Assembly (NCBI GenBank): GCA_913057235.1
Contig: CAJXNI010000020.1
Location: 1 to 45,751 of the forward strand
Direction of reading: 5' to 3'
Source: an uncultured Bacteroidota bacterium
GTDB taxonomy: Bacteria > Bacteroidota > Bacteroidia > Flavobacteriales > Schleiferiaceae
DNA length: 45,751 bases
Shown: piece after piece, positions 23,116-33,484 of the stretch
How positions within the stretch are numbered: position 1 is the stretch's first letter
Layout of the letters: each line of letters starts with the position of its first letter
Notes under the pieces: model-generated
Told to the model about the DNA's origin: nothing
Databases searched by the model: none
Seen by the model: only the letters and a program-made list of their open reading frames with translations
Made by a program: the position numbers and the translations under genes

Positions 23116-25020
23116 ATGGATAGTGTATACCAAATAGGCTCTTTTGAAGAGTATCAGCAACAATACCAACTTAGTGTAAAAGACCCTGAAGGTTTTTGGA
23201 ATAGCATAGCCCAGAACTTTCAGTGGTTGAAGCCCTGGGACAAAACCGTAGAATGGGAATTTGAAACGCCTGATGTGAAATGGTTCAGCGGAGCTCAGCT
23301 GAACATCACCGAAAACTGCCTGGATCGGCATCTGGAAAAGCGTGGCAACAAGTTAGCGTTGATTTGGGAGCCCAATGACCCCAAAGAGCGCTTTGTGCGC
23401 ATGACTTATCGTGAGTTGCATGAAGAAGTTTGCAAAGCGGCCAATGTTTTAAAGAGTATGGGAGTAAAGAAGGGAGATCGCGTGGCGGTGTACATGCCCA
23501 TGATTCCCGAGCTCACCGTGGCGGTGCTGGCGTGTGCGCGTATTGGCGCAGTGCACAGCGTGGTTTTTGCAGGCTTTTCGGCTCACGCCTTAGCCGATAG
23601 GATTAATGATGCTTCTTGCAATGCCGTTATTACGGCCGATGGTATTTACCGCGGTGCCAAGGAAATCCCCTGTAAAGGGGTGGTAGATGAAGCTTTAAAA
23701 AGTTGCACTACGGTAGAAAAAGTGCTGGTGGTAGAGCGCACCCAGTGGAATGTAAAAATGCAAGAAGGCCGTGATTATTGGTGGCATGAAGAAATGGCTA
23801 AAGCCGATAGAGAGTGTGTCGCAGAGCCCATGGATGCGGAAGACATTCTCTTTATTCTATATACCTCTGGCAGCACGGGTAAACCCAAAGGTGTGGTGCA
23901 CACTTGCGGGGGCTACATGGTGTATGCTGGGTACAGCTTTGCCAACGTTTTTCAGTATCAGGAAAGTGACGTGTATTGGTGTACAGCTGATATTGGCTGG
24001 ATTACCGGGCATAGCTACATTGTGTACGGACCTTTATTGAATGGCGCCACTACCTTAATGTTTGAAGGGGTGCCCACCTACCCAGATCCGGGCCGTTTTT
24101 GGCAGGTATGCGATAAGCATGGCGTAAACCAATTTTACACCGCCCCAACCGCCATTAGAGCTTTAATGGCCAAAGGCGAAGACCACGTATTAAGCTACGG
24201 ACTCTATTCACTAAAAGTATTAGGTACGGTAGGCGAGCCTATAAATGAAGAAGCTTGGGAATGGTATCATATTCACGTAGGAAAGGAAAGATGTCCTATT
24301 GTAGATACCTGGTGGCAAACTGAAACGGGCGGTATCATGATCTCTGGTTTGGGAGAACATAGCCCCAGGAAGCCCAGTCATGCCGGTTTTCCCCTCCCCG
24401 GAATTCAGCCGGTGTTGCTGGATCAGGATGGCAAAGAGCTGGAGGGTAATAATGTAGAAGGCTATTTGGCCATGAAGTATCCCTGGCCTAGCATGCTTCG
24501 CACCACCTACGGAGATCATGAGCGCTGCAAGAATACCTATTTCTCGCATTACCAGGGATACTATTTCACAGGCGATGGCGCCAAACGGAATGAAAACGGC
24601 ATGTACCGGATTATTGGCAGAGTAGATGATGTGATTAACGTGAGTGGCCACCGTTTTGGCACTGCTGAAATTGAAAACGCCATTAATGCTAATGATCATA
24701 TTGTTTCAGAAAGTGCGGTGGTAGGCTACCCGCACGATATTAAAGGACAGGGTATCTATGCCTATGTAATTACTAAAGAGCCGCCTCAAAATCCTGATAA
24801 ATTGAGGGCCGAAATTGTAGAAACAGTGGTTAGTGAGATTGGCAAGATTGCCAAACCCGATAAGATTCAATTTGTATCGGGTTTACCCAAAACACGCAGT
24901 GGTAAAATTATGCGCAGAATTTTACGCAAGGTGGCCGAAGGGGATACCTCTAATTTAGGCGATACCTCCACCTTGCTAGACCCGGATGTGGTGGATGAAA
25001 TTAAAGCAGGCGCCATGTAA
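23116..25020 (+). CDS. acs: acetyl-CoA synthetase
   Basis: Cytoplasmic AMP-forming ligase converting acetate, ATP and CoA to acetyl-CoA. At 634 aa it has normal length. Seen are the N-terminal ACAS domain (FWNSIAQNFQWLKPWDK), YTSGSTGKPKGVVHTCGGY, the acetate-pocket motif DTWWQTETGG, the hinge DDVINVSGHR, and Lys597 in LPKTRSGK, the site usually controlled by reversible acetylation. It is the last gene of the kinase operon; the preceding gene ends one base before its ATG. A strong terminator follows. Together with the symporter and kinase it makes a complete acetate scavenging set. Confidence 0.95.
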   Translation: MDSVYQIGSFEEYQQQYQLSVKDPEGFWNSIAQNFQWLKPWDKTVEWEFETPDVKWFSGAQLNITENCLDRHLEKRGNKLALIWEPNDPKERFVRMTYRELHEEVCKAANVLKSMGVKKGDRVAVYMPMIPELTVAVLACARIGAVHSVVFAGFSAHALADRINDASCNAVITADGIYRGAKEIPCKGVVDEALKSCTTVEKVLVVERTQWNVKMQEGRDYWWHEEMAKADRECVAEPMDAEDILFILYTSGSTGKPKGVVHTCGGYMVYAGYSFANVFQYQESDVYWCTADIGWITGHSYIVYGPLLNGATTLMFEGVPTYPDPGRFWQVCDKHGVNQFYTAPTAIRALMAKGEDHVLSYGLYSLKVLGTVGEPINEEAWEWYHIHVGKERCPIVDTWWQTETGGIMISGLGEHSPRKPSHAGFPLPGIQPVLLDQDGKELEGNNVEGYLAMKYPWPSMLRTTYGDHERCKNTYFSHYQGYYFTGDGAKRNENGMYRIIGRVDDVINVSGHRFGTAEIENAINANDHIVSESAVVGYPHDIKGQGIYAYVITKEPPQNPDKLRAEIVETVVSEIGKIAKPDKIQFVSGLPKTRSGKIMRRILRKVAEGDTSNLGDTSTLLDPDVVDEIKAGAM

Positions 25021-27082: not shown

Positions 27083-27454
27083 ATGAAAGCTATTTTTGCA
27101 TACGGCCTTTTTTTGATGTTGCTCTGGGCGGCTCTTTTTAAGAGTATGGCCTTTTTAATCTTTAAGGTAAATGAGGCTGCTGTAGTTTCTGAACTATGTG
27201 TTGAAAAAGATTTAGAGGTTAACAACTGCAAAGGTTCCTGCTATCTGAAAGAAAAATTAGGTTTATCAGATAATTCGCAAGAGCAAAATAAAAGACCTCT
27301 AACAATACAAGTACAAGATCTTACTTTCCTAGAAAGTCCTTACTTGAACTTATCATATAGAGCAGATTATAGAGCAGAGCATCCATTTTATTATCTAGTA
27401 TTCTTTTCTAAAGGTATCAGAAACATTTGTTGGAAGCCACCCAGGCTTGTGTGA
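27083..27454 (+). CDS. small membrane protein with C-x9-C-x3-C motif, encoded before MbnP
   Basis: 123 aa from the ATG at 27083 (an in-frame TTG at 27071 is less likely). One N-terminal membrane segment (about residues 4-27), then the motif C39...C49-K-G-S-C53-Y-L-K-E-K-L, and a C-terminus with C116 followed by WKPPRLV. The CxGxCxLxKxL pattern with a PP near the end is one I associate with small Bacteroidota proteins next to MbnP or metal genes, but I cannot name a family. The cysteines would face the periplasm and could bind copper or haem, or act in thiol exchange. MbnP starts 55 bases downstream. Confidence 0.65.
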   Translation: MKAIFAYGLFLMLLWAALFKSMAFLIFKVNEAAVVSELCVEKDLEVNNCKGSCYLKEKLGLSDNSQEQNKRPLTIQVQDLTFLESPYLNLSYRADYRAEHPFYYLVFFSKGIRNICWKPPRLV

Positions 27455-27509
27455 TTTCCAACACCTATTTTCTGCGTACCAATAAATACTTTTAGAAAAA
27501 ATTAATACC

Positions 27510-28313
27510 ATGAAAAAGATTGCTTTTCTTGGGCTTTTTGCCCTGTCTACCCTCTTAATTTCTTGCGAGGAGGATGACAACAACACCAACAACAATCAAG
27601 AACCTACCGATACCAAGGTTACTCCAAAGTTTATGTATGATTACAACTTTGGTGCTGATGATTTTCAATTAGATCAATATTATGCACTGGATGGAGGTGC
27701 TCAGGTGTCCTTTTCACTGGCTTCTTTTTATATTTCGCAGCCCACCTTAGTAGATGATAACGATGTTGAAACGCCTCTAACTCCAGAATATATTATAGTG
27801 AGACCAGGTGATGGTCCCACTTCTTTTGATGCTATAGAGAGTGGCCATGCCCATCGCTTAAAGTTTAATGTGGGAATTGATGCGGCTACCAATACTGAGA
27901 ATGGAGCCAGTGGTGTGCAGCCATCTGATTTCACGGATCCCAATCATCCACTAGCGCCCCAGCCCGAAGGAATGTACTGGAGTTGGGCCAGCGGTTACAT
28001 TTTTGTGAAACTAGAAGGAGCTTATGATTATGATGGAGATAGCCAAGCAGATACCACCTTTAAATATCACTTAGGGGTAAATGACCTTCTTCAGGTGAAA
28101 GATGTAATGCTTCACAGCGATATGGCTGGCGGAGAGGATTTTGAAGTAGACATCAAGCTGGACTTAAAACAGGTGTTTACCAACTTGGACATCAACACTG
28201 AAGTATTGACCATGACTATGGGTGGTCCGGAGAACAAGGCTTTGGCTACTAAAATCATCCAGAATTTTGCCAATGGTATCTCGGTTGAGAAACATGATCA
28301 CGGCAGTCACTAA
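27510..28313 (+). CDS. MbnP-family copper-binding lipoprotein
   Basis: 267-aa lipoprotein. The signal peptide has its lipobox Cys at residue 19 (LLISC) followed by EEDDNN, an acidic run of the kind that can direct Bacteroidota lipoproteins to the surface. The conserved MbnP core is seen: FGADDFQLDQYY, VSFSLASFYISQ, SGHAHRLKFNVGI, the aromatic stretch EGMYWSWASGYIFVKLEG and a late VDIKLDLKQVF. The tail is His-rich (EKHDHGSH). In methanotrophs MbnP binds Cu(I) after its MbnH partner oxidises a Trp to kynurenine; the MYWSWASGY tryptophans are the obvious candidates here. The next gene is the MbnH partner and overlaps by 20 bases. Confidence 0.85.
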   Translation: MKKIAFLGLFALSTLLISCEEDDNNTNNNQEPTDTKVTPKFMYDYNFGADDFQLDQYYALDGGAQVSFSLASFYISQPTLVDDNDVETPLTPEYIIVRPGDGPTSFDAIESGHAHRLKFNVGIDAATNTENGASGVQPSDFTDPNHPLAPQPEGMYWSWASGYIFVKLEGAYDYDGDSQADTTFKYHLGVNDLLQVKDVMLHSDMAGGEDFEVDIKLDLKQVFTNLDINTEVLTMTMGGPENKALATKIIQNFANGISVEKHDHGSH

Positions 28314-29358
28314 ATACGGCCTTCCAAAAAGTAAGATTAAAAAACTTGGCAGCCTAGCGCTGCTAAGTTTTTTTGTCTTTCTAGCATGCACGCCCAATCA
28401 GGATCAGCAAAAAAGCACAGCGGTTGACCAACCGGTATCCATAGCTATCCCGCACTTTCCAGAAATGCCGGTTCCTGAAAATAGGCCTATTACTAAAAAG
28501 CGCATTGCCTTAGGTAAGAAACTTTTTAACGATCCTATTCTCAGTAAAAACCAAGACATTTCCTGTGCTTCTTGCCACCTAAGTGCTAAGGCTTTCACCG
28601 ATGGGCGAAATGTTTCTACTGGTACGGAAGGACGACAGACACTCCGCAATTCGCCCACCTTATTTAATCTGGCTTGGCAGCCCTATCTCTTTATGGATGG
28701 CGGCAATCCTACTTTAGAGAGTCAGGTTTTTGGCCCCATAGAGGAGCATACCGAAATGGATAACCCCTTTACAGAAGCCATGGCGCGGGTGGCAGCCAGC
28801 GCAGAATACCAACGTTTGTTTAAAGAGGCCTTTGGAGACGATGTGAATCCATTTACTTTAACCACGGCACTGTCTACTTTTGAAAGAAGTCTGGTGAGCT
28901 ACAACAGCCCTTTTGATCAGTTCTATTATTACGGAGACTCATCGGCCTTGAGCCCAAGCGCACAGCGCGGTTTGCAACTTTTTACCAGTGAGGCCTTGGC
29001 TTGTGAAAGCTGCCATAGCTTTCCGCTAACCACCAATTTTAGTTTTGAGAATATAGGGTTAAAAATGCATTACCAAACCGATTCTGGAAGGGCTCGGGTT
29101 ACGCAAGTGGCCGCAGATCACGGAAAGTTTAAAGTACCTACCCTTAGAAATATAACCCTTACTGCACCCTACATGCATGACGGCAGCGTAGAAACCCTTA
29201 GTGAGGTGATTGATCATTTTGCTGCCGGAGGGGTGGGTCATCCTAATCAAAGCAAGCAGGTGAATGGATTTGCCATTACGGCCCGGCAGAAAGAAGATTT
29301 GTTGGCTTTTTTAGCCAGCCTCACTGATACCAATTCCTACCAGCAGTATCAGGATTAG
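28294..29358 (+). CDS. MbnH/MauG-type dihaem peroxidase, lipoprotein
   Basis: 354 aa from the ATG at 28294, which overlaps the end of mbnP-like gene by 20 bases; the frame is open further upstream, but only this start gives a good signal (lipobox Cys32 in FFVFLAC). Two c-type haem sites are present: C91-A-S-C94-H95 and C237-E-S-C240-H241. The sequence around APYMHDGSVETLSEVIDHF matches MauG/MbnH-type enzymes rather than classical cytochrome c peroxidases, which have a Met ligand after this block. Predicted role is oxidation of a Trp in MbnP to make a copper site. Location is periplasmic or outer-membrane anchored. Confidence 0.88.
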   Translation: MITAVTKYGLPKSKIKKLGSLALLSFFVFLACTPNQDQQKSTAVDQPVSIAIPHFPEMPVPENRPITKKRIALGKKLFNDPILSKNQDISCASCHLSAKAFTDGRNVSTGTEGRQTLRNSPTLFNLAWQPYLFMDGGNPTLESQVFGPIEEHTEMDNPFTEAMARVAASAEYQRLFKEAFGDDVNPFTLTTALSTFERSLVSYNSPFDQFYYYGDSSALSPSAQRGLQLFTSEALACESCHSFPLTTNFSFENIGLKMHYQTDSGRARVTQVAADHGKFKVPTLRNITLTAPYMHDGSVETLSEVIDHFAAGGVGHPNQSKQVNGFAITARQKEDLLAFLASLTDTNSYQQYQD

Positions 29359-29376: not shown

Positions 29377-29976
29377 TTATTCCAACTTAATTTTCCAGGC
29401 ACCACGCAAATCGCCTATTTCAAAGCCTAGGGCCTTATCATTGGGGTAGGTTTTGGCCAAAGCTTCAAGGGTTTCCTTTTGCACTTTCTTGCCAGGCGTG
29501 CCGTGGCATTTAAGGCAGGCCTCCATTTTGAGTACAATGGGTTTGTAAAAATACCGTTCACCGTCAACCTCCTTTAAAACAGGCTCGGGGGTAGTGCCCG
29601 CTGCCATGGCCTGTTCAAAAGATTGGTAGGCTGCGCTATCGGTGGCGTTTTTCAAATAGTTGTTAGGGTTGCGATTGCGGGTAGCAATGCGGCCAATTTG
29701 CGCGTTGTGCAAAGCCCCAATAGAATCTGCAATACCACTAGCCTTTAAATTGCAGTAGCCAATGGCATATTGGGTGCCTCCCTGTTGCAAGGCACTACTC
29801 ACCTGGCTCATTAGAGCCCCTTGCGCTTCAAAGGCTATTTCATTGCCGCGTTCTAGCGCATCTTGGGTTTCATTTGGCTCTTCGGCCGATGGAGCCTTGG
29901 CTTTAGAATTTGGTGAATTACAGGCCGCAATGGCCAGTAAGATGGCAGAGATTGCCAGAATTGCGCGGTACTGCAT
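29377..29976 (-). CDS. DUF3365 (Tll0287-like) haem lipoprotein
   Basis: 199-aa lipoprotein with lipobox Cys19 (LAIAAC) and a single c-type haem site C154-LK-C157-H158 near the C-terminus, preceded by the family stretch IGYCNLKASGIADSIG and the Arg-rich RIATRNRNPNN. DUF3365 proteins are haem-binding redox or gas sensors, or small electron carriers, in the periplasm. It is convergent with the MbnH-like gene, 18 bases apart, so it is not in the same operon, but it adds a third haem protein to this locus. A functional link is possible but unproven. Confidence 0.86.
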   Translation of the reverse strand: MQYRAILAISAILLAIAACNSPNSKAKAPSAEEPNETQDALERGNEIAFEAQGALMSQVSSALQQGGTQYAIGYCNLKASGIADSIGALHNAQIGRIATRNRNPNNYLKNATDSAAYQSFEQAMAAGTTPEPVLKEVDGERYFYKPIVLKMEACLKCHGTPGKKVQKETLEALAKTYPNDKALGFEIGDLRGAWKIKLE

Positions 29977-31193: not shown

Positions 31194-32417
31194 ATGATTG
31201 AACTCAAACCCTTTTGTGCCTTACGCCCTCCCCGGGATAAGGCGTACCTAGTGGCTACCCGTAGCTATTTAACGTACACCGAAAGTGAACTAGAGGATAA
31301 ACTGAACAACAATCCCTTTACGTTTTTGCACATCATTAATCCCGCTAAGGGAAGAGGTTTAGATTACGGGCCAGAGAAATACCAACGGGTAAAAAAAGAG
31401 TTTGAAAATCGATTGGAAGAAGGCATCTTTCAACAAGATACACATCCTAGTTTTTACCTCTACCGTCAGGTGAAAGACGGCAATGAATACATTGGGCTAA
31501 TTGCTGCAGTAGCGGTAAAAGATTACCTGGAAGGCCGCATAAAAAAGCATGAAAAAACCCTTACGCGAAGGGAAGAAATGTTTACTGATTACCTGCAAAC
31601 TACTGGCTTTAATGCCGAGCCAGTGCTGCTCACGTACCAAGATGATCTTCGTTTGGATCAGATTTTTGTCCAGTATATTGAGCAACGCTCTGAGTACGAA
31701 TTTACCAGCACTGATAGGGTGCTGCACCAGCTTTGGCTGATAGACGACCAAGCGCACTGCCAAATCATAAGCGAAACCTTTAAAGAGCAAGACTGCCTAT
31801 ACATTGCTGATGGTCATCATCGTTGCGCCAGTTCAGCTTTGTTGGCGGATCGGTTGGCCTCTCATGGCGATGGGGCGCATAATTATTTTATGGCACTGCT
31901 TATAGGCGAAGAGCAAATGAAGGTGTATGACTTTAATCGCTTGGTGAAAAATACTACCGGTAAAAGTGAGCTTAAAATCTTGCATGAATTGGAGGAGCAT
32001 TTTTTAATTGAGCGCAAGGGTAAATCAATTTTTAGGCCTGAAAAACTGCACGAGATAGGAATGTACCTAAAAGGCGAGTGGTATAAAATTGTGCCTAAAA
32101 CCGGCACTTTTGATCCGGGTGATGCGGTTAGTCATTTAGATGCAGACATTCTCAGCCAAAACGCGCTAGACCCTGTTTTTGGAATAGAAGATCTAAAAAA
32201 TGATAAGCGTGTAAGCTTTGTGCCGGGTACCGAAGGTTTGGAGTACCTCCAAAATAAGGTAGACCAAAATAGCTATCAGGTGGCATTTGCATTGCATCCT
32301 GTAACGGTAGATCAAATTAAAAAGGTGAGTGACGCTGGCTTAACTATGCCGCCTAAGAGTACTTATGTGGAGCCAAAACTGCGCAGCGGCTTAACCGTGT
32401 ACAAGATTTTAGAATGA
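31194..32417 (+). CDS. DUF1015 family protein
   Basis: 407-aa cytoplasmic protein covering the whole DUF1015 length. Seen are the N-terminal MIELKPFCALRPPRDKAY, YLYRQV in the first third, and the conserved IADGHHRCASSALL and YFMALLIGEEQMKVYDFNRLV blocks; the end (FALHPVTVDQIKKV to MPPKSTYVEPKLRSGL) is also typical. The biochemical function of the family is not settled, although it often sits near serine biosynthesis genes. The last nine bases overlap the convergent HupE-like gene. Start at 31194 is supported by family alignment. Confidence 0.9.
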   Translation: MIELKPFCALRPPRDKAYLVATRSYLTYTESELEDKLNNNPFTFLHIINPAKGRGLDYGPEKYQRVKKEFENRLEEGIFQQDTHPSFYLYRQVKDGNEYIGLIAAVAVKDYLEGRIKKHEKTLTRREEMFTDYLQTTGFNAEPVLLTYQDDLRLDQIFVQYIEQRSEYEFTSTDRVLHQLWLIDDQAHCQIISETFKEQDCLYIADGHHRCASSALLADRLASHGDGAHNYFMALLIGEEQMKVYDFNRLVKNTTGKSELKILHELEEHFLIERKGKSIFRPEKLHEIGMYLKGEWYKIVPKTGTFDPGDAVSHLDADILSQNALDPVFGIEDLKNDKRVSFVPGTEGLEYLQNKVDQNSYQVAFALHPVTVDQIKKVSDAGLTMPPKSTYVEPKLRSGLTVYKILE

Positions 32418-32996
32418 AATTTCAAAGGGCCAGGTTTCAATGCACATGATTAAAGCCAGGGCAAAGGCCGCCCCTGAAATAAAGAGATTCCACTCACGGG
32501 GTTTTTTATTAAGAATAAACTCGTATACCACTAAAGCAATTAGTAAGGCGGCCACTACGGCCAACTGCCCAAGTTCTACCCCAAGATTAAAGGGCAGTAA
32601 AGCTTCCCAATAGTTTTTAGTACCCATCACCAGCATGTCGTAATAATTGGAAAAGCCTAAACCGTGAATAATTCCAAAGAGAAGGGCTAACCAATTTTTA
32701 CTGCTGCTTTTTTGGTTTTGCCCGGCCTTGCTCAGATTAAATAAGGCCGTAAAAACAATAGTCACCGGGATTAAAAACTCTATTAACTCGCTTTCTACTG
32801 TAACAATATCCAATGCCCCCAGGGTAAGCGAAACGGAGTGGCCAATGGTAAAAAAGCTTACGGCAATAATTACCTTTAGCCAGTGCTTGAGTTGGTAGGT
32901 GGCCATTAAGGCAATCAAAAAAAGTATGTGGTCTAAAGCACTAAAGCTAACAATGTGCTCATACCCAAGGGTTAAATAGTTGGTAAAGGGGCTCAT
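32409..32996 (-). CDS. HupE/UreJ-like membrane protein
   Basis: 195-aa inner-membrane protein with about six or seven hydrophobic segments. The family His sites are within membrane helices: HILFLIAL, TIGHSVSLTL and GIIHGLGFSN. HupE/UreJ proteins are linked with nickel or other metal uptake. The neighbouring DUF6702 gene starts upstream with only two bases between, giving a two-gene operon that occurs widely in Bacteroidota. No urease or hydrogenase is in the window. The gene ends inside the convergent DUF1015 gene. Confidence 0.8.
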   Translation of the reverse strand: MSPFTNYLTLGYEHIVSFSALDHILFLIALMATYQLKHWLKVIIAVSFFTIGHSVSLTLGALDIVTVESELIEFLIPVTIVFTALFNLSKAGQNQKSSSKNWLALLFGIIHGLGFSNYYDMLVMGTKNYWEALLPFNLGVELGQLAVVAALLIALVVYEFILNKKPREWNLFISGAAFALALIMCIETWPFEISF

Positions 32997-32998
32997 GC

Positions 32999-33484
32999 CT
33001 AAAAGTTGAGGGTTTGCAATGTTTTTTGTTGATTGTAGTAGGCCGATTGTAATTTACCGCCCTGCTCCAAATTGACCAAATTCGTTTGGTCATCAAACAG
33101 CTCTAATAGCAAGGTGTTCTGTACGGTTACAGCTAAAGGCCATTTTTCAAAATTGTATTGTAGGTATACATAGGTTATGTCATACTCTACCTCATAACCA
33201 ATAAATGTAAATTCTTCCCAATCATTTTTGGTGGAGCGCAATTTAAAATGGCGTCTAAAGTATTGTTCCAGTAGTTTGGGGGTGGCTTTAGCTTCACGTT
33301 GAGTGCCCAGCGCTATTTTAGTGTCTTGGCCTTGCTCTAGGGCCGCTTCCAGATCATCGGTGAAAACCTTAGCGGTAACTTGCAACTGCTCTCCCTTAAA
33401 CTCTCCGTAAGTTGTACTCACGTGAAAGTCATGAGCATTAGTAAGTAGTAAGCTAAAAAAGGCACTGGCGAAGAATGAAAACAT
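32999..33484 (-). CDS. DUF6702 family exported protein
   Basis: 161-aa exported protein with a signal peptide (MFSFFASAFFSLLLTNAHD). The mature part begins FHVSTTYGEFKGEQLQVTAKVFTDDLEAAL, typical of DUF6702, followed by beta strands and a central YFRRHFKLRS. It is first in a two-gene unit with the HupE-like transporter, and His residues near the processed N-terminus (HDFH) could bind metal. Family assignment is from memory of the conserved N-terminal pattern. Confidence 0.72.
   Translation of the reverse strand: MFSFFASAFFSLLLTNAHDFHVSTTYGEFKGEQLQVTAKVFTDDLEAALEQGQDTKIALGTQREAKATPKLLEQYFRRHFKLRSTKNDWEEFTFIGYEVEYDITYVYLQYNFEKWPLAVTVQNTLLLELFDDQTNLVNLEQGGKLQSAYYNQQKTLQTLNF

Follow-up and report, generated by a model that had tools for sequence, protein, structure and literature searches.

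The short ORF with a Cys motif that lies directly ahead of an mbnP-like and an mbnH-like gene (Table 1) is probably a cis-acting, copper-responsive leader ORF for these two genes, a reading to which we give a probability of roughly 70%. The locus lies in a 45,751-nt stretch of DNA from an uncultured member of the Bacteroidota (the window, which here denotes the whole of the stretch analysed), and the short ORF is referred to below as the Cys ORF. The observations behind the reading are the position of the ORF, its Cys motif, the Pro-Pro pair near its end, the fixed spacing between these two, the predicted disorder of most of its product, the choice of neighboring genes, and an RNA fold in the window; the response to copper and the arrest of translation are what we infer from them.

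Table 1. Features of the three-gene locus, in window coordinates.
Feature	Position	Strand	Remarks
Cys ORF (putative leader ORF), 123 aa	27083..27454	+	N-terminal helix, C-x9-C-KGS-C, 65-residue linker, ...WKPPRLV-stop
Cys motif C-x9-C-K-G-S-C, codons 39-53, proposed copper sensor	27197..27241	+	
Pro-Pro, codons 119-120 (CCA CCC), proposed arrest site, 3 residues before stop	27437..27442	+	
Predicted RNA fold, leader 3' end and stretch ahead of mbnP ATG	27398..27508	+	
mbnP, MbnP-like lipoprotein, 267 aa	27510..28313	+	PF20243, profile match to 7l6g
WxW (W157-S-W159) of MbnP	27978..27986	+	aligned to W-N-W of 7l6g
mbnH, MbnH-like di-haem enzyme, 354 aa	28294..29358	+	CxxCH at aa 91 and 237

The original prediction had described three consecutive genes, a Cys motif in the first of them and an MbnP/MbnH pair that lacks methanobactin; the first two descriptions hold, and the third holds as regards the methanobactin enzyme MbnB. 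The ORFs follow one another on the forward strand, with 55 nt between the Cys ORF and mbnP and a 20-nt overlap between mbnP and mbnH, and the motif is present as C39-x9-C49-KGS-C53. The window's genome is 99.97% complete, and a profile search of it for the MbnB family (PF05114) gave no match; the same search, used as a control, gave matches in 2 of 14 control genomes. According to the accessible part of an earlier article (PMC3621798), MbnP/MbnH pairs far outside the methanobactin producers have been in print since 2013, and the missing methanobactin is therefore not new.

The mbnP product matches PF20243 with 107 bits (cut-off 27; E 1.3e-30; Pfam search) and stays under the TIGR04052 cut-off (45.4 bits against 140; NCBIfam search). 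Its sole Cys, C19, is part of a lipobox-like start, and its WxW, at residues 157-159, is invariant in 13 aligned MbnP sequences. A profile search with MbnP matched the solved MbnP-like chain 7l6g; a single-sequence search of solved structures gave chance matches only. The mbnH product, with its two CxxCH motifs, scores best with TIGR04039 among 10 NCBIfam families (271 bits, under the cut-off of 362.85), matches PF03150 (E 8e-55; Pfam search), and has as its top solved match 6e1c, a 'Di-heme enzyme' (E 8e-49). Since both proteins lie under the NCBIfam cut-offs, we call them no more than "MbnP-like" and "MbnH-like". The window pair thus resembles MbnP/MbnH (TIGR04052/TIGR04039) in being adjacent, in its WxW and in its di-haem enzyme, and differs in falling below both cut-offs, in belonging to a genome without MbnB, and in having an MbnP that is a lipoprotein without the four Cys.

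In the pair of M. trichosporium, MbnH reportedly turns a Trp of MbnP into kynurenine for Cu(I) binding, and a 2021 PNAS paper is said to have placed this change at the first Trp of WxW. By analogy, the MbnH of the window would form kynurenine at the first Trp of its MbnP partner's WxW, again for the binding of Cu(I). WxW is present in 34 of 35 MbnP proteins encoded behind a Cys ORF (the one exception is a sequence cut by the edge of the fetched region), compared with 43 of 59 without one (p 0.0023): leader and modifiable MbnP tend to occur together. The window's genome holds two more adjoining MbnP-domain genes (L131, contig C11), one of them under the Pfam cut-off, and there is no Cys ORF at that place. 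Within the window, a Tll0287-like protein (PF11845) with a CxxCH is encoded convergently to mbnH (29377-29976, reverse strand), and at 32409-33484, on the same strand, a HupE/UreJ_2 protein (PF13795) adjoins a DUF6702 protein (PF20420).

Neither Pfam nor NCBIfam, both of which were searched, holds a model that fits the Cys ORF. We therefore searched with a profile built from 24 of its relatives, in which C39, C49, G51 and C53 are invariant, using a single draw of 296 Bacteroidota genomes, each at least 90% complete. Matches were found in at least 118 of the 296 genomes, at no fewer than 150 places; these figures are for the matches listed, with at most 14 candidates scored per genome, and misses are likely. 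We fetched the regions of 121 of these places, from 92 genomes, and examined the anatomy of their ORFs. All 121 have the Cys motif followed by Pro-Pro, which lies 1-5 residues before the stop in 115 and within 8 residues in 119. Pro-Pro follows the last Cys at a distance of 61-73 residues (median 66, SD 2.25), and the residue preceding Pro-Pro is mostly H (60), otherwise R (21), P (18), Q (12) or K (5). An N-terminal hydrophobic stretch is found in 112 of the 121. The linker is kept in length and hardly in sequence: 27 linkers of length 66 have an identity of about 19%, compared with 51% around CxGxC.

The search profile itself includes Pro-Pro and the members are related, so these counts are not independent. 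For this reason we checked 14 fetched members in which the profile match did not extend as far as Pro-Pro; all 14 have it, within 5 residues of the stop in 13 and at 17 residues in one. A second scan, in which the Cys motif served as the query, yielded 80 named loci, mostly of Flavobacterium; Pro-Pro was present at 80 of 80, with a spacing of 67-73. AlphaFold2 predicts for the Cys ORF of the window a confident helix at residues 2-38, a short helix at 53-58 and otherwise disorder (mean pLDDT 63, pTM 0.31, from a shallow alignment of 34 sequences). HYC_CC_PP and DUF6660 were considered as look-alikes and set aside; a text search of the literature found no use of either name, and one similar-looking ORF, tested for this idea, had no NCBIfam match. 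The window's genome contains a second member of the family (L109, contig C19, 32707-33054, reverse strand), which ends in VPPPKFD and is followed by a 288-aa protein starting with a CDVCGC motif.

The association of the Cys ORF with MbnP is beyond chance. PF20243 has 103 matches in 78 of the 296 genomes, 99 of them above the cut-off. Among the matches listed, at least 44 of the 103 have a Cys ORF within 5 kb (at least 42 within 1.5 kb) and 59 have none within 5 kb; in all 44 linked cases the Cys ORF is upstream and on the same strand (two-sided sign test 1e-13, kinship ignored). The original prediction had linked the third ORF to the pair by position and had named a random distribution as what would overturn this, and its link survives the survey.

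The family is not tied to MbnP. A same-strand ORF follows 116 of 119 members, compared with 307 of 394 in the background (p 1.4e-9), and the other three have a miscalled ORF next, followed by a same-strand ORF or an MbnP match. For 114 members the protein encoded next, on the same strand, was classified by its first 330 aa (E <= 1e-4, with a few ORF-caller errors inside the set): there are 38 with a TonB plug, 33 MbnP, 9 YtkA, 7 Phenol_MetA_deg, 4 YHS and 1 SCO1. A PepSY_TM gene comes after the TonB receptor at eight of eight receptor loci, which were hand-picked because the next gene looked right. At L303, in Flavobacterium aquatile LMG 4008, a Cys ORF stands ahead of MbnP and MauG genes. Two members stand in tandem ahead of one TonB receptor at L104 (G148) and at L144 (G415). 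One genome (G098) has two identical-scoring copies of the locus near opposite ends of its contig C1 (28929 and 3412512), probably an assembly overlap. In four relatives (L003, L004, L006 and L008) an acetyl-CoA synthetase-like gene lies directly 5' of the Cys ORF; in the window such a gene is present at 23116-25020, with three other ORFs between it and the Cys ORF.

This anatomy recalls that of CruR, the DUF2946 protein of Bordetella pertussis (bp2923), which the accessible part of its report (PMC9426467) describes as an upstream ORF with a Cys motif and an RAPP three residues before the end, the spacing between the two being fixed at 45. The arrest is stated there to be relieved by copper at the Cys motif, with Rho halting transcription ahead of a TonB receptor gene; the same text places CruR homologues ahead of MbnPH-like genes. 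In CruR, Rho sites are marked by an excess of C over G. The Cys ORF shares with CruR the small size and exported type, the Cys motif, the Pro-Pro three residues from the end and the fixed spacing, as well as a position upstream of TonB receptor-PepSY_TM genes (the cruR-bfrG-bp2921 layout of Bordetella) and of MbnPH-like genes. It differs in having C-x9-C-x-G-x-C rather than CXXC, (F)HPP/RPP or WKPP (WKPP in the window) rather than RAPP, and a spacing of about 66 rather than 45, and its family is one of Bacteroidota. Like CruR at the head of a copper-related operon, the Cys ORF lies directly ahead of receptors, MbnP, YtkA and YHS, but it does not always open its unit: in 86 of 120 cases the ORF upstream of it has the same strand. 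No member of the 24 matched DUF2946 (PF11162) at E values up to 10, DUF2946 is rare in the sample (8 of 296 genomes), and no distant homology was found, with an hhalign probability of 0.1% from a profile of only four DUF2946 sequences. The functional likeness would thus be due to convergence or to a kinship beyond detection.

CutF of Rhodobacter has a layout similar to that of CruR with the opposite sign, copper turning a multicopper oxidase on, as the accessible text of PMC9973294 has it. The 2023 survey in that article counts 5,334 CutF-like proteins in 29 clusters, 40% (normalised) from Bacteroidota, with TonB-like neighbors among the most frequent; its main text does not give MbnP by name. 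The Cys ORF of the window agrees with the CutF-like proteins in size (123 aa, where these have fewer than 150), in its C-terminal Pro-Pro (3 residues before the stop, where the survey allows up to 15 residues from the C terminus), in its same-strand neighbor (55 nt away, against a bound of 1,000 nt), and in the many relatives from Bacteroidota. The survey further asks for a cleavable Sec signal peptide by SignalP; at this end of the protein, 112 of 121 members of the Cys family have a hydrophobic stretch, and the model of the window's ORF has a helix at residues 2-38. A 2025 survey of RAPP/RGPP uORFs (PMC12992588) reports, in the part available, that TonB-related ones are general in Gram-negatives and that Cu-related ones are missing in Bacteroidota. 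The Cys family resembles these arrest peptides in its Pro-Pro near the leader end and its place before TonB and copper genes, and differs in having neither RAPP nor RGPP. Other arrest-type uORFs are known in Bacteroidota. Our literature search, which had most subscription journals beyond its reach, found no paper on the Cys family together with MbnP.

Two sets of loci point to action in cis: those of genomes with two Cys ORFs, and those where MbnP lacks a family member and has a CruR-like ORF instead. In seven genomes (G005, G018, G019, G031, G123, G158 and G186) a pair of Cys ORFs is separated by a few kb, one of the pair lying ahead of a YtkA-receptor or YHS unit and the other ahead of mbnP. 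Of the 61 MbnP places where no Cys ORF was listed within 1.5 kb, 11 have some upstream ORF that has Pro-Pro close to its end and at least two Cys. Six of these were judged leader-like by eye (L235, L236, L241, L243, L249 and L252), and the other five (L228, L248, L250, L259 and L264) were dropped by eye as chance or ill placed. Four of the six are CruR-like, with ends RGPP or RDPP; DUF2946 matches L252 above the cut-off, L249 below it and the remaining four not at all. The ORFs at L241 and L236 are Cys-rich, end in WTPPKIG and FHPPEVLPV, respectively, lie directly before MbnP, and possibly represent further leader families.

In the mechanism that we propose, the N-terminal helix would guide the nascent chain to the Sec translocon, and C-x9-C-x-G-x-C would be about 66 residues behind a ribosome that has come to Pro-Pro, near the stop. 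When copper is scarce, a pause at Pro-Pro would keep the junction between the ORF and mbnP open, by unfolding of the RNA and/or by shielding it from Rho, and mbnP and mbnH would be expressed. When copper binds the Cys motif as this emerges, the pause would be relieved, and the genes would be shut down. Copper as the ligand, the arrest, the direction of the response and the output by way of RNA or Rho are the parts of this scheme that we infer.

The junction in the window is predicted to be strongly folded. Positions 27400-27530 have a minimum free energy of -31.4 kcal/mol, compared with -17.7 (sd 3.04) for shuffled sequences (z -4.51; 0 of 200 as low). A 14-bp helix (27404-27417/27486-27499) pairs the leader 3' end with a stretch that lies ten nucleotides ahead of the mbnP ATG; another predicted helix (27428-27436/27455-27463) surrounds the Pro-Pro codons and the stop. 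Near relatives (L003, L004 and L006/L008) have the same fold layout in different letters (z -2.9 to -6.0), the common geometry being judged by eye, as the junction alignments were too diverged for a count of covariation. At six places of the same family as the window (L007, L016, L360, L366, L369 and L377) z was not significant. For the window's family as a whole, z is below -2 at 8 of 14 distinct mbnP junctions (a set in which L371 has its next ORF on the opposite strand), compared with 34% of controls. Across the phylum, the wider junction has a mean z of -2.16 (n 74) versus -1.45 in controls (n 90; p 0.0026), and a duplex test of junctions versus controls gave p 0.043. A local hairpin at the leader 3' end, considered as a family-wide feature, was not supported, a narrow test giving no difference from controls (p 0.88), and RNA structure is not a hallmark of the Cys-ORF family. 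With a modelled ribosome footprint on Pro-Pro the 14-bp stem still forms, and it opens only when the whole of the upstream RNA is blocked, so that the pause would have to be aided by a queued ribosome or by steric hindrance. A Rho signature was also set aside: C exceeds G at the leader 3' end in 120 of 121 cases, versus 40% of 82 controls, and this apparent excess is largely one of amino-acid make-up, with p 0.08 at third positions and p 0.09 in the intergenic part once Pro-Pro and amino-acid effects are removed.

The original prediction had cast the third protein as a metal relay or anchor. A membrane helix followed by invariant cysteines would suit a membrane-anchored periplasmic relay or chaperone that passes copper to MbnP, as would the constant upstream, co-directional position of the Cys ORF wherever the two are linked. 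Such a role does not stand up well, however, because the family is found equally before TonB receptors and other, unrelated genes, with separate copies ahead of neighboring units, and because its members keep the N-terminal helix, the Cys motif and Pro-Pro alone. The linker, held in length without sequence, and the invariable Pro-Pro near the stop are needed by no relay, and the model from the shallow alignment of 34 has no fold past the helix. We consider the relay quite improbable; the traits of the Cys ORF fit the anatomy of copper-responsive leader ORFs such as CruR and CutF rather than that of a relay.

Leader ORFs may also work in other ways. Copper could strengthen the pause and so turn the downstream genes on, as proposed for CutF. 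In the accessible text of PMC9973294, CutF has a Cys motif, a Pro-rich C terminus and a stem-loop that covers the start of the next gene, and copper raises CutO; the window and its near relatives, with short junctions (40-55 nt) and a fold that covers the start, agree with this. We think this opposite sign unlikely, however, since the downstream receptors and MbnP-MbnH suit acquisition, for which repression by copper, as in CruR, would be expected. Alternatively, the cysteines could sense another signal, such as another metal, haem, the redox state or disulfide formation. His-only CutF-like proteins ahead of HupE/UreJ genes (in the available part of PMC9973294) and other RAPP/RGPP uORFs ahead of thioredoxin-like genes (in that of PMC12992588) set precedents for this, yet the neighbors of the Cys ORF, namely MbnP, SCO1, YHS and PepSY_TM-linked receptors, indicate copper, and a different signal seems decidedly unlikely. 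The preferred reading is thus a leader ORF whose downstream genes copper would shut down. Its extension to a Bacteroidota-wide leader family, independent of DUF2946, in which periplasmic copper would be read by a ribosome-bound chain for several copper-linked gene sets, is tentative, and we would put it below even odds. In that version the fixed distance of about 66 residues would match the span of ribosome tunnel and translocon together, about 65-70 residues, and the cysteines would be reaching the periplasm as the two prolines are joined, in contrast to CruR with its spacing of 45.

There is a trap for annotation here: if the reading is true, a "Cys protein" that is conserved next to a metal enzyme does not have to function as a protein. 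The Cys ORF, with its different end motif, would also open to testing a published gap, the Cu-related RAPP/RGPP uORFs that the available part of PMC12992588 reports as missing from Bacteroidota. If the reading is true, the leader marks likely copper-acquisition gene sets of Bacteroidota, the MbnP-MbnH pairs of this phylum are tied to copper without methanobactin, and Bacteroidota gain a form of copper control that is read out during translation.
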